A DNA stretch of 64,000 nt from Armatimonadota bacterium (GTDB taxonomy: Bacteria; Armatimonadota; UBA5829). Both the position numbers and the translations under genes were made by a program. Location of the stretch: NCBI GenBank assembly GCA_039679645.1, contig JBDKUO010000013.1:1-64000 (forward strand), given 5' to 3'. The notes beneath the pieces were generated by a model. It ran no database searches and had not been told where the DNA came from. It worked only from the letters and a program-made list of their open reading frames with translations. Shown here piece by piece: positions 3,967-8,880 of this stretch; the stretch's first letter is position 1; each line of letters opens with the position of its first letter.

Positions 3967-6204
3967 TTACTCAGGTAGATATTCGTGCGTGTCGTCGGTA
4001 AATGTGATTTTGAGCATTCCGTTTTCTTTGCTTATATCAGCAACCTTTGCGGCGTCTACAGTCACTTCTCCGACAAGTCCCGCGCCAATTGTGAATTTGA
4101 CTCCGTCCTGGTTTGTAAGTTCCAGAGTCGGGTTCTTGGCATCTCCTCCGGAGTCAATTTGTGTGGAGCCGCTGCCGGTCAGATATGCGGTTCCCCAACC
4201 CAGCTTGTTCACGGTGCACGTAGCGTTTCCGCCTCCGTCAAGGTTGAACTCCAGGTTTGCTTCATAAGCGCGGTAGCTATCTCGGGTAATCTCTCCCACT
4301 ATTGTGACAGATCCTTGGGCGGTATTAACCGAAGCATCGGCTGTAGGATTATCGCACTTGCCTTCAATAGTGCCTGAGAAGTCAAGTTTGGTATCCGAGT
4401 TGTTGTAACCGCCGCTGAGTTTTACGTAATCAGGCACAGCCGCATTGCCTTTGCTGCCTGTCTTTATCTGTGCGGTCGCTGTAAGACCGCCTGATACGCC
4501 TACCGTTTGCGTGCCGTTCTTGATTGTCAGCGAAAGACCTGTGGCATTAAGGCCAGTGGGAAGAATGTCGCCATCATCTGTGACACTGCTGCTCACTGTT
4601 GCGCTGATATTTCCCTTGAGTTCGACCGACTTCGTTCCTGAACTGGCAGAAATCGATGCGCCGGAAAGACTTATTGTTTTGGGAATTGACTGTGCATATC
4701 CATTGATCGTTACCACCTGCATTGTCTCACTGAAGTCTCCAGACAGCGAAGCTGTTATCGACCCGCCTGTTACTGTACAAGACGCCCCACTCATCGCCAG
4801 ACTGGTCGGGTAGTCATATATAGTGGTGTCTTTCTGGGCCCCGCTTGGAACTGCTGAAAGGAAGTTGGCGACAAAATTGCCTTTGGCGTTAACCTCAGCG
4901 GACGTCAACGTGCCGTTAAACTGAATAGCGGTATAGGCAGACTTGTTCGCGCCGGTAGCGCTCACAACGCCGCTAAAGGTGATCGGAGTTGTAATCTTGC
5001 TGTCCTTGATCGAAACAGAGACGTTGGCACTCGGATTTGTCACATCCAGTATGGATTCGTCCAGCCCGACCACCTTGTAGTACATCGTGCCGTCATTTGA
5101 CGATGTCTGAACCACCTGCCAAGTGGTCGAAGTTGGCTGAGTCGCCACAACAGTATATGTGACGCCGCTGTCGGTCAACTTGATTGTAATCCTGCCGGTG
5201 GCGTCATATGCAGGATTTTTTGTGATCTCGATCCATGACCAGCCCCAGGCCTCCTCATGAAGTGTCGCCTGATAGCCTTTGCCCATTTCCAGATCAGTGA
5301 TGCTCTTGCTGTCGTAGTCGTAGTCGGATGTGTATAGTTCGCCAAAAAACGCAGGCATGAGCAGCTTGCTCATTCTGCTGCCGAGCTGTTCATACTTTTC
5401 TGCAACCTCGTCGAGAGGAGCATAGTCAATGGCGCTCGCACATGCGTTATAGACGGATTTCAGGTTAGGGCTTTCCTCATTCAACAGCGTTGCCCAAGGC
5501 ATAGCGACCTCTTTCATCTGCTGAACGGCATTCTTTGCCTTTACCAGTGCGTTATAGATCTTCTCAGCACCTTTGGCTATCAAGCCTGCGAGTTTCTCGC
5601 TGTCCAGATTGCCTTTGGCTCCAAAAGTTTCACCGGATATCAATCCCCCGCCCAGAGAGACGTCGGCATCGGAATGAGCAGCCAGATAAGACTCGGCCTC
5701 GGCTTTCACTGCATCGAATGTGTCGCTGTCGATTACAGTGCCTGTCTTGTAGTGCGCTTCACTGATTGCTTCAGAGGCTAACGTAGTCGCTGCGTCGGCT
5801 ACGTAGGTTGCATTGCCCTGAGGAACCGTCGGGATAATAGTTGACATGCGATAGTTCTTGTCTCCTATCTTTCCGGTTATTACTACCACGACACTAAGCC
5901 CGGATGTTACATTTACAGTCCCGAACCCATTACTGTCGATTGTACCGGTATTAGGTAGAAGCTCGCCCGTCGCAAAATTATAGACCTGTATGGTAGCTCC
6001 CGCATCCAGCTTTGCGTTGATTGTAGTCTCTGCGCGGCTTTCCGCTGTAGTGCTTCCTATTGCTGTATCAGCTCCGATAGTCAATGTGACTCCCGGGTTT
6101 CCCGTGAGCGGAGTCGTCGATCCGCCTCCTCCACCTCCACCACATCCGGCAATTGCCAGTGCAACAATCAGCACCAGCGCCAATTTGAATCCATACATCT
6201 TCAC
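3967..6204 (-). CDS. Large lipoprotein of unknown function
   Basis: About 745 aa. I place the start at the GTG at 6204 because GGAGGG sits 7 bases upstream. This gives MKMYGF, a short hydrophobic segment and a lipobox IAGC with Cys at residue 21, followed by a run of Gly residues (a flexible tether). The mature part is Ser/Thr/Gly-rich with many short beta-like segments (roughly residues 380-690 look repetitive) and contains no catalytic motif I recognise. It is probably anchored to a membrane and exposed at the surface or in the periplasm. It is divergent from pfkA and followed by a hairpin and the barrel-like gene. Confidence 0.6.
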   Translation of the reverse strand: MKMYGFKLALVLIVALAIAGCGGGGGGGSTTPLTGNPGVTLTIGADTAIGSTTAESRAETTINAKLDAGATIQVYNFATGELLPNTGTIDSNGFGTVNVTSGLSVVVVITGKIGDKNYRMSTIIPTVPQGNATYVADAATTLASEAISEAHYKTGTVIDSDTFDAVKAEAESYLAAHSDADVSLGGGLISGETFGAKGNLDSEKLAGLIAKGAEKIYNALVKAKNAVQQMKEVAMPWATLLNEESPNLKSVYNACASAIDYAPLDEVAEKYEQLGSRMSKLLMPAFFGELYTSDYDYDSKSITDLEMGKGYQATLHEEAWGWSWIEITKNPAYDATGRITIKLTDSGVTYTVVATQPTSTTWQVVQTSSNDGTMYYKVVGLDESILDVTNPSANVSVSIKDSKITTPITFSGVVSATGANKSAYTAIQFNGTLTSAEVNAKGNFVANFLSAVPSGAQKDTTIYDYPTSLAMSGASCTVTGGSITASLSGDFSETMQVVTINGYAQSIPKTISLSGASISASSGTKSVELKGNISATVSSSVTDDGDILPTGLNATGLSLTIKNGTQTVGVSGGLTATAQIKTGSKGNAAVPDYVKLSGGYNNSDTKLDFSGTIEGKCDNPTADASVNTAQGSVTIVGEITRDSYRAYEANLEFNLDGGGNATCTVNKLGWGTAYLTGSGSTQIDSGGDAKNPTLELTNQDGVKFTIGAGLVGEVTVDAAKVADISKENGMLKITFTDDTHEYLPE

Positions 6205-6392
6205 AAACCAGCCCTCCATTCGTAATAGTTGATCGCATTTAGCTTACTAGCGAGTTATATACATGAGTAATTGTACACATCTATTGAGAATCCTTCATGC
6301 CGCTGATCTATTTGTGAAATGCATCGTGGCGAGTGTTGTCATCTCTTTGAACGCGTAGGTAAGCCATGTCCCTTCCACTTTCTTCAGCAGGC

Positions 6393-6457
6393 AAGGAGGT
6401 ATTATGATTCTGTTCTATAATCATCCATTATGCCTGTCAAAACGATCGGTCTTCTAA
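6393..6457 (+). promoter_or_regulatory. pfkA leader: strong ribosome site with overlapping short frame
   Basis: A perfect AAGGAGGT (6393-6400) lies 29 bases before the pfkA ATG at 6430, too far for normal use. It is ideally spaced for an ATG at 6404 that opens a 17-codon frame running past the pfkA start in another frame. The bases between also contain a weak inverted repeat (ATGATT 6404-6409, AATCAT 6419-6424) that, if folded, would bring the ribosome site to about 8 bases from the pfkA ATG. Either coupling or folding could set pfkA translation. Confidence 0.35.
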
Positions 6458-7386
6458 CCAGTGGGGGTGATGCCCCCGGAATGAATGCCTGCATCGCCAC
6501 GATTGCAGCGCGCGCGGAAAAGCTTGGCTTGGATGTGCGCGGGATATTTCGCGGGTTCCAGGGACTCGTAAACGCCGATACTATTCCCGTAGGCGTCGAG
6601 CTTGAGGGTCTTGCCAGGCGCGGCGGGAGCTTCCTGGGCACATCCCGCAACGGCAAGCGGGAATCCAAGCTACTGGATATGGGGATCGAAGAGGCAATGA
6701 AGCACTGCAGCATCGACGGCCTGATAGTCCTGGGCGGAGGCGGCACTCTTGAAACGCTGGGCAGGTTTGCCGTGGGCGGCGCCCCCGTTATCGGAGTGCC
6801 CTGCACGATAGACAATGACATTTATGGCACCGACTACGCGCTTGGTTTCGACTCAGCCGTCAATAAAGCGCTTAGAGCAGCCGATGAGATCATGGACACC
6901 GCCGAGAGCCTGTCGGAGCGCGTGTTCGTGATAGAAACTCTCGGCGGCACAGCTGGCCACATGGCTCTTGAGACCGCATACTCTGCCGGAGCCGACGCTG
7001 TGTTTGTCCACGAAGTCAAACCGGATATCAATGCCGCGGTCCTGAAGATAAAGACCAAGATGGATGCGGGGGGCACTCATGGGCTCGTTGTCCTGTGTGA
7101 AAACCTCGGCCTTGAAAGTATCACGAAACAGCTTGAAGAAGGCATCGGCAGGCGTGTAAGGGTTACGGTCCTCGGACATATTCTACGCGGTGGCAACCCC
7201 ACTTACTTCGACCGCAACCTTGCCCGCCGGTTCGGCGAGACGGCATTCGACCTGCTTGTCTCCGGCGAGACTGAGAAAATGGTCGCCTGCGCCGGCAAAG
7301 ACATATCATCAGTTCCTCTGAAGCAGATAGCAGGCAAAAAGAGAGAACTCGATCTGCATAAATACGATTTTGTGAATCAGCCTTAA
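6430..7386 (+). CDS. 6-phosphofructokinase homologue with altered phosphoryl-donor motif
   Basis: A 318-aa PfkA-family protein. TSGGDAPGMN opens the protein, GGSFLGTSR matches the Arg72 region, PCTIDND (catalytic Asp at 128) is intact, and the fructose-6-phosphate residues are present (Arg in SERV, Glu in LCENLG, Arg in GRRVRV, HILRGG). The donor-site motif normally GGDGS (ATP) or GGDDS/T (pyrophosphate) reads GGGGT at residues 102-106, so the Asp that holds Mg-nucleotide is Gly. MGR is also changed to LGG. The family phosphorylates fructose 6-phosphate in glycolysis. Whether this copy uses ATP, pyrophosphate or another donor, or is regulatory, is unclear. The start fits the conserved N-terminus. 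Confidence 0.8.
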   Translation: MPVKTIGLLTSGGDAPGMNACIATIAARAEKLGLDVRGIFRGFQGLVNADTIPVGVELEGLARRGGSFLGTSRNGKRESKLLDMGIEEAMKHCSIDGLIVLGGGGTLETLGRFAVGGAPVIGVPCTIDNDIYGTDYALGFDSAVNKALRAADEIMDTAESLSERVFVIETLGGTAGHMALETAYSAGADAVFVHEVKPDINAAVLKIKTKMDAGGTHGLVVLCENLGLESITKQLEEGIGRRVRVTVLGHILRGGNPTYFDRNLARRFGETAFDLLVSGETEKMVACAGKDISSVPLKQIAGKKRELDLHKYDFVNQP

Positions 7387-7465
7387 TCCACCTATAGTCT
7401 GCCGTGCTTCTTCCCGATATATCTATGGGCCTATGTGTCCAAATGCAAATATGAGGTTACGGCAA

Positions 7466-7882
7466 ATGCCTGTGGGATGGACCCCGGAGATGTCCGTTGG
7501 GATAACCGAGATAGATGACCAGCACAAGGAATTGTTCAAGAGAGCAAATGTCTTGCTTGATGCAATAAAAGAAAGCAAGAGTGCGGATGATATCAGTAGG
7601 GTTGTTGCTTTTTTACAAAACTATATGGCCGGTCATTTCGATACGGAAGAAAAATATATGATGCGCTACGGCTGCCCGCAATATATCAGCCATAAAGCCC
7701 GGCATACGCTCTATGCAATGGAATTTTCCGGCATCAAACACAGCTTGATACACACAGATTCGGATGCTTCAGTATTGCTGGTAAAGAAGAGAATTGTCGA
7801 TTGGCTTATAGACCATATCCAGCGTGAGGATATGTCTCTCGGCAGTTTTATCAATAGCATAAAACTAAAAAATGCAGCTTAA
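7466..7882 (+). CDS. Bacteriohemerythrin
   Basis: 138 aa from the ATG at 7466, chosen because GAGG lies 9 bases upstream and the product then starts MPVGWTPEMSVGI, the usual family N-terminus; an upstream ATG at 7433 has no ribosome site. All di-iron ligands are visible in order: His in IDDQHKELF, HFDTE (HxxxE), HKARH (HxxxH) and HIQRED (HxxxxD). Hemerythrins bind oxygen reversibly at a carboxylate- and hydroxo-bridged di-iron site in the cytoplasm and act in oxygen storage, sensing or delivery. It stands alone and its stop overlaps the stop of convergent pdxA by 4 bases. Confidence 0.9.
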   Translation: MPVGWTPEMSVGITEIDDQHKELFKRANVLLDAIKESKSADDISRVVAFLQNYMAGHFDTEEKYMMRYGCPQYISHKARHTLYAMEFSGIKHSLIHTDSDASVLLVKKRIVDWLIDHIQREDMSLGSFINSIKLKNAA

Positions 7883-8880
7883 AGCTTAGCCATTTTAAGC
7901 ATATCCACGGCAGCCAGAATAGCCGCTTTCATACTCACGGGGTTGGCGATCCCCTTCCATGCAATATCCAGAGCAGTGCCATGGTCGACCGACGTCCGCA
8001 GCACCGGAAGGCCGAGAGTGGCGGTAACTGTGCCATAGAAGTCCCGTGTCTTAGCGGCGATGTGCCCCTGGTCATGATAGAGCGAGATCACGCAGTCGAA
8101 CTTGCCTTCGAGAGCCATGTTAAAGACCGAATCGGCTCCTATCGGCCCGCTTACCCTAATCCCCTCTTCCAATGCAAGTTGGACGGCCGGGGTCAGATAC
8201 TTCTCTTCCTCGTCTCCAAACTGTCCGCCGTCGCTGGCATGCGGGTTCAAAGCCGCGAGAGCGATAGTCGGATTCACAAACCCGAAACCGGTCATGGCTT
8301 CATGGACGCGTCTGATGAACTTATGGACTCTCTCGATTGTGATGTAATCTATCGCCTGCTTCAGTGATAAATGGCGTGAGAGGAAGAATATACGCATATT
8401 CTCCGTGATAAAGAGAGTGAGCGGGTTTGGAGAGTCCAGATATGCCGCCAGCATCTCCGTGTGTCCTATATACTCGACTCCGGCAAGCCTGAGGGCTTCT
8501 TTATTTATTGGGGTGGTCGCAATGGCATCTATCTCACCCGCCAGTCCAAGTTCGCAAGCTCTCCTGACAAACGCGTTCGCGGCCTGACCCGCGTCAGCGC
8601 TGAGCCTGCCCGGCTCGATATCCTGCATGCCGGGCGTTTCGACATGCACTATCTCTATTGTCCCAAGCTCGCCCTTCGCGTCAGTCGGGGAGTTGATAGT
8701 TATGATAGGAACGCTTTTGCCAATGGCCTGGGCACAGCGCCTCAAAATGCCGGAGTGCCCGATCACGACCGGCACGCATTTCTGATAGACTTCCTCGTTT
8801 TCCAGCGCTCCAAGCACAATCTCAGGCCCGACGCCAGCCGGGTCGCCTAGCGTGATGCCTATTATGGGTTTTCTGTCCAA
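7879..8880 (-). CDS. pdxA: PdxA-family 4-hydroxythreonine-4-phosphate dehydrogenase (or PdxA2-type sugar-acid phosphate dehydrogenase)
   Basis: 333 aa, the usual PdxA length. GITLGDPAGVGPE opens the protein; LNPHASDGG and LYHDQGHIAAKT carry the metal-binding His and Asp sites. PdxA oxidises 4-phosphohydroxy-L-threonine with NAD in pyridoxal phosphate synthesis. The GHI after YHDQ also resembles PdxA2 proteins, which act on erythronate or threonate 4-phosphate. No other vitamin B6 gene and no DUF1537 kinase lies near, so the choice stays open. The start is a TTG at 8880 with GGAGGG 5-6 bases upstream. It lies downstream of the riboswitch cassette, separated by a hairpin (8968-8987). Confidence 0.8.
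   Translation of the reverse strand: MDRKPIIGITLGDPAGVGPEIVLGALENEEVYQKCVPVVIGHSGILRRCAQAIGKSVPIITINSPTDAKGELGTIEIVHVETPGMQDIEPGRLSADAGQAANAFVRRACELGLAGEIDAIATTPINKEALRLAGVEYIGHTEMLAAYLDSPNPLTLFITENMRIFFLSRHLSLKQAIDYITIERVHKFIRRVHEAMTGFGFVNPTIALAALNPHASDGGQFGDEEEKYLTPAVQLALEEGIRVSGPIGADSVFNMALEGKFDCVISLYHDQGHIAAKTRDFYGTVTATLGLPVLRTSVDHGTALDIAWKGIANPVSMKAAILAAVDMLKMAKL

Follow-up and report, generated by a model that had tools for sequence, protein, structure and literature searches.

The window analyzed here is a 64,000-nucleotide stretch of an Armatimonadota genome that carries a phosphofructokinase (PFK) gene of the PfkA family together with the features below. Site residues are numbered as in E. 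coli PfkA throughout, unless given as the window PFK's own residues.

6430..7386, + strand: PfkA-family paralogue P0001, GGGG/ETLGG type (318-amino-acid open reading frame; PF00365; orthologues; AlphaFold2 model)
6733..6747, + strand: GGGGT in place of GGDGS/T (own residues 102 to 106; codons GGC GGA GGC GGC ACT)
6799..6819, + strand: PCTIDND, kept, with the equivalents of Asp127 (general base) and Asp129 (sequence and alignment)
6934..6948, + strand: ETLGG in place of EVMGR; the Arg171 equivalent is the protein's own Gly173 (alignment)
7433..7882, + strand: hemerythrin-domain protein (PF01814, 48.6 bits), 46 bases downstream of the PFK gene on the same strand
7879..8880, - strand: pdxA-like gene, convergent (TIGR00557, 321.2 bits, cut-off 290.35), with a counterpart at this position in both G004 and G003

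The PFK reading frame is uninterrupted, and its product matches the Pfam PFK profile PF00365 at 262.6 bits against a cut-off of 30.9, which places it in PFK superfamily A. An AlphaFold2 model built from an alignment with 36 relatives (pLDDT 92.3, pTM 0.90) has E. coli PFK (1pfk) as its top Foldseek match, with a TM score of 0.93, and the PfkA monomer fold is intact in the model. A sequence-only reading of this DNA had pointed out GGGGT in place of GGDGS and LGG in place of MGR in a gene otherwise keeping its fructose-6-phosphate (F6P) residues and PCTIDND, and all of this is borne out by alignment. Asp103 aligns with the window PFK's own Gly104 (codon 6739 to 6741), LGG occupies its residues 171 to 173 (6940 to 6948), and Thr125, Asp127, Asp129, Arg162, Gly170, Glu222, Arg243, His249, and Arg252 are present on the F6P side, with Leu at the equivalent of Met169. 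The protein passes the looser NCBIfam subfamily model NF002872 (290.9 bits, cut-off 253) and falls below the cut-off of the equivalog for ATP-dependent PfkA, TIGR02482 (261 against 371.35 bits). It also fits none of the ATP, ADP, and pyrophosphate donor motifs, as these are given in the part of PMC11609450 drawn on here: the ATP motif GGDGSxxG is replaced by GGGG(S/T) with Ala or Thr at position 108 in six of seven aligned orthologues, the window PFK combines GGGGT with PCTIDND rather than GG(D/E)D(S/T) with PKTIDxD as in pyrophosphate enzymes, and the ADP-dependent motif GGDGSxxI is absent.

Orthologues were sought in 291 Armatimonadota genomes, with the best 30 matches made into loci, so that weaker Gly171 relatives may be missed. 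Seven genomes match at 516 to 579 bits and the next best match scores 308 bits; an eighth orthologue, in G003, is split by N runs in its assembly and was read in frame between them. The eight carriers (G000, which is the window genome, and G002, G003, G004, G007, G011, G016, and G018) all lie within one order, in families f1 and f3. All eight orthologues have GGGG and ET(L/M)GG (seven in the alignment, that of G003 from the N-bounded frame), and of the seven genes that can be read here, five encode the Gly at the Asp103 position with GGC and two with GGA. The dN/dS ratio is 0.065 both against G004 (317 codons, dS 0.84) and against G002 (284 codons, with a dS of 3.1 that is near saturation), and together with the conservation of the motifs this shows the gene to be real, old, and selected. 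Decay had been judged unlikely from the sequence, in agreement with the intact frame and this ratio, and a base-call error had been named as what would undo the observation. Gly differs from Asp here by a single base (GGC for GAC), the one point found in favor of a sequencing error or pseudogene; GGGG in every orthologue, the two Gly codons in different genomes, and the low dN/dS rule both out, leaving them a negligible probability.

The pattern of kept and lost sites is sharply divided among the seven aligned orthologues. Kept throughout are the acceptor and catalytic residues Thr/Ser125, Asp127, Asp129, Arg162, Gly170, Glu222, Arg243, His249, and Arg252, as well as Gly102 and the phosphate loop (Gly11, Arg72, Gly104, and Ser/Thr105); position 169 has Leu in five orthologues and the Met of E. 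coli in the other two, and the inter-subunit arginines are kept. Asp103 and Arg171 are each replaced by Gly in all seven, and Gly108 by Ala or Thr in six. The adenosine-pocket positions 76, 77, 82, and 107 vary and position 73 is Asn in five of seven, such that positions 73, 76, 77, 82, 107, and 108 have no common replacement and no new fixed residue set is visible in the nucleotide pocket of these orthologues. The ADP/PEP effector site is likewise largely gone, with Arg21 (Ala in all seven), Arg154, and Lys211 lost in all seven, Arg25 in six, and Lys213 in five, and with Glu187 changed to Asp. Invariant columns make up 100 of 282 gap-free columns overall, nine of ten acceptor/catalytic columns (P = 5e-4), and none of seven adenosine-pocket columns (P = 0.045), where the P values are descriptive, the test having been run after the pattern was seen with site lists taken in part from PMC10339645. 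As read from the alignment, the notable feature is this joint loss, in which the donor and effector sides are changed and the F6P site and both catalytic aspartates are invariant.

The loss of Asp103 alone is not diagnostic, because other PFKs can have Asn, Glu, or Gly at this position. In an alignment of 104 related PFKs, position 103 is Asp in 78, Asn in 19, Glu in five, and Gly in two, although the set consists of close relatives of the query and members of its phylum, was not drawn at random, and has no donors assigned to its proteins here; the generalization that ATP enzymes keep GGDGS is accordingly too strong, and Asp103Gly is rejected as the sole decisive change. Two metagenome-assembled genomes, one of Actinomycetes (L055) and one of Omnitrophota (L057), have PFKs with GGGGS in which the ATP-pocket residues and Arg171 are intact. 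(Each of these genomes also encodes a PFK with GGEDT and PKTIDND.) In the same class as the window genome, PFKs of family f4 (L137 and L144, in G025 and G019 of genus g11) have GGGGT together with PKTIDND and with MGH for MGR, placing His at 171; from their motifs they form a lineage of their own that lacks Asp103 and whose background is otherwise pyrophosphate-like. Gly171 is rarer than Gly103, being found in none of the 55 other rows of the comparison alignment, and on this residue evidence Arg171Gly, along with the alteration of the nucleotide and effector sites as a whole, is more telling than the change at Asp103. The earlier interpretation thus stands in part: an unusual donor and a regulatory role are still the proper candidates, given that most of the ATP and effector sites has gone and the F6P side has been retained, but L055 and L057 remove the diagnostic weight placed on Asp103 by itself.

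Three distant relatives that group with the GGGG clade are PFKs of Armatimonadota family f18 (L011, L014, and L159), which have ETLGG and share Gly171, Thr168, Leu169, His175, Cys124, and an extra residue before Arg162 with the window PFK. Unlike the GGGG clade, they keep Asp or Asn at 103, Phe76, and Arg or Lys at 82, and their Arg21 is changed to Glu, whereas the GGGG clade has Ala; which residue they have at position 108 differs with the aligner used. Every f18 genome also carries two other PFK genes. A tree of 61 rows supports the GGGG clade at 100/97 (bootstrap/SH-aLRT) and its union with the f18 proteins at 100/98, and a likely order of change is that Gly171 came first, with later loss of the ATP pocket and Asp103. 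So far, the combined clade is known only from Armatimonadota. Among the best 80 of 584 relatives in a scan of genome contigs, the sole clade member (L041) apparently lies on the same contig as that of G003. No ETxGG protein was present among 20 loci read from the phylum of G291 (396 genomes, 54 matched at a threshold of 1e-85) or among four loci read from that of G292 (384 genomes, four matched at 1e-95). In 204 SGGDxxxMN frames, from overlapping loci that repeat some genes, E(T/V/I)xGG occurs only in GGGG-clade and f18 loci, and none of 26 pattern matches in viruses is a relative. We note that in all three f18 genomes the Gly171 PFK gene follows a T2SSE/T2SSE/T2SSF run and a Pfam-less membrane-protein-like gene (L216:8903-15146; L217 and L218); these secretion or pilus neighbors were set aside as giving no metabolic clue.

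A check for a second pfk gene, suggested from the sequence, found two further ones in the window genome, which has three PF00365 genes: a canonical GGDGS type (L001), a long GGDDS/PKTIDGD type (L003), and the window PFK. The long type, which has the pyrophosphate signature, is present in all eight carriers, and the canonical type in four (G000, G002, G003, and G004). The canonical type is missing from G007, G011, G016, and G018, whose genomes are 95 to 100% complete and in which the window-type gene is the only short PFK. Another PFK is therefore available in every carrier, and the housekeeping reaction need not rest on the GGGG gene. Six further genomes of the class (G017, G021, G023, G024, G026, and G027) have only a long-type match to the query, so that glycolysis may need no PFK other than the long type. 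A dedicated regulatory subunit of the canonical ATP-PFK is unlikely as a general role, since half of the carriers lack that enzyme.

Gene neighborhoods differ by lineage, and no partner gene is common to all carrier lineages in those compared. The hemerythrin gene adjoins the PFK gene in G004 and G003 as well, so that hemerythrin and pdxA-like genes are the neighbors in genus g1 (G000, G004, and G003), and the former may, weakly, be an operon partner of the window PFK. In G002, G007, and G011 the neighbors are a divergent PPDK-like gene and a HATPase/STAS gene, and in G016 and G018 a PfkB kinase gene adjoins. The run in G018 (L037:1663-8884) comprises an FGGY kinase, a glycyl-radical enzyme, its activase, a DUF2007 protein, the GGGG PFK, and the PfkB kinase, and from its gene content looks like an uncharacterized sugar pathway. 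Neither the PfkB nor the PPDK-like neighbor was retained as an operon clue: relatives of the former are in 27 of 28 class genomes at an E value of 1e-30, and those of the latter in 13 of 28, seven of them noncarriers. Directly upstream of the PFK gene in the window, on the opposite strand (3967 to 6219), is a gene for a 750-amino-acid, glycine-rich, lipoprotein-like protein with no Pfam match and no match among the neighbor regions compared.

On present sequence evidence, the window PFK is an intact and selected third PfkA paralogue, belonging to a small Armatimonadota subfamily defined by GGGG and ET(L/M)GG, and it is unlikely to serve glycolysis as an ordinary kinase. That the F6P side is kept and ordinary ATP-PFK activity is unlikely we hold with good confidence from the conserved and lost residues. 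The use that seems likeliest, though short of an even chance, is that of a sugar-phosphate-binding, sensor- or regulator-like protein whose ATP-PFK activity would be low or nil. Constraint is seen on the acceptor side and on both aspartates but on neither the nucleotide nor the effector side, and the nucleotide pocket has gained no fixed residues, which is the reason for this reading. The fold would stay PfkA, F6P or the bisphosphate would be bound between subunits, and the ordinary ATP-dependent, ADP/PEP-regulated function would have been given up; phosphates may still bind, since Arg72, Gly11, Gly104, and Ser/Thr105 are kept.

Such a use has a partial parallel in the C-terminal half of eukaryotic PFK, which, according to the part of PMC12203962 drawn on here, lost its ATP pocket and had its F6P pocket reused as an effector site. 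In the one human sequence compared, the liver PFK (7lw1), the C-terminal half, in which the ATP pocket is lost, shares Thr168, Gly171, Phe41, and the extra residue before Arg162 with the window PFK; both proteins are without Asp103, and both keep Arg162, Arg243, and His249 on the F6P side. In contrast, Asp127 and Asp129 are lost in the human half and kept in the window PFK and all seven aligned orthologues, and in eukaryotes the regulatory half is joined to a catalytic one, whereas the window PFK is a stand-alone bacterial gene. The human half has a very long branch in the tree and takes no firm position there, either with the GGGG clade or apart from it. By this analogy, it is possible, if doubtful, that the window PFK is a free-standing bacterial counterpart of the eukaryotic regulatory half, a fructose-phosphate sensor working without ATP that would have passed through a Gly171 stage with ATP-site residues as in f18.

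Several observations count against a sensor-like use and bear on the alternatives. A mere binder would not need Asp127 and Asp129, the status of the gene as the only short PFK in four carriers also fits a working kinase, and there is the lack of a shared partner gene. The E. coli Asp103Ala mutant, moreover, reportedly keeps F6P binding with activity that is reduced and not zero. The protein might instead still transfer phosphate to F6P but from a different donor, a small or non-adenine one held on the phosphate loop (Gly11, Arg72, Gly104, and Ser/Thr105), with Asp127 as the base. The retention of base, Asp129, and loop beside an unconstrained adenosine pocket agrees with this, as do the repeated donor changes in PFK-A described in the part of PMC12203962 consulted; yet every known non-ATP signature (GG(D/E)D, Lys124, and GGDGSxxI, among the motifs taken from PMC11609450) is absent, no new conserved donor pocket is visible, and position 171 is Gly where the human, E. 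coli, and pyrophosphate-type rows have Arg or His, so that a changed donor seems possible and rather improbable.

An ATP-PFK that is slow or free of ADP/PEP control, serving as a minor isozyme, would account for the intact fold and catalytic aspartates and the NF002872 match, and it has precedents of a kind in the f18 relatives, which combine Gly171 with most ATP-site residues, and in L055 and L057, with Gly103 in an otherwise canonical site. It is nevertheless unlikely given the drift of the adenosine pocket at six positions without a common replacement and the failure at the TIGR02482 cut-off. A different sugar phosphate might be the substrate, in a pathway particular to a lineage, such as one that involves the neighbors of the gene in G018 (the FGGY kinase, the glycyl-radical enzyme, and the PfkB kinase). 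That gene order and the PfkB neighbor in G016 suggest such a role, but the F6P-side residues are unchanged, the neighbors differ in genera g1 and g4, and the distribution of the gene is not matched by the absence of transaldolase that a role on sedoheptulose 7-phosphate would predict, all of which make it very unlikely. A sedoheptulose 7-phosphate kinase replacing transaldolase was itself rejected, as transaldolase-family matches are in six of eight carriers and 10 of 20 class noncarriers and show no association.

Relative to E. coli PfkA (NF002872, TIGR02482), the window PFK has the same length, fold, F6P-side residues, Asp127/Asp129, and phosphate loop but differs in its Gly at 103 and 171, an adenosine pocket that is not kept, and effector residues that are mostly lost. 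Pyrophosphate PFK-A proteins (the long GGDDS type and group III) share the superfamily, the acceptor chemistry, and, in most rows, a large residue at 108, but the GGGG clade is without their GGDD, PKTIDxD lysine, and Arg171. The cyanobacterial ADP-dependent PFK-A, so far as PMC11609450 was drawn on, is likewise a short PFK-A in which the donor side has changed and the F6P side is conserved, although its signature GGDGSxxI keeps Asp103 and the GGGG clade has GGGG(S/T)xx(A/T/G). Judged by titles and the openings of abstracts, in a search that left most subscription journals outside, no paper apparently treats such a protein.

PFK is a textbook allosteric enzyme. The clade bears on donor choice within PFK-A, an open question, and separates a kept acceptor side from lost donor and effector sides in a small single-domain bacterial protein, for which the f18 relatives with their ATP-site residues offer a comparison. 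If the sensor-like reading is true, PFK-A proteins can live on as bacterial sugar-phosphate sensors; if the donor is changed, another phosphate donor exists. We also note that, among PFKs elsewhere, those of Bacteroidota often have GGNGT for GGDGS (L077, L080, L091, L099, and other loci).
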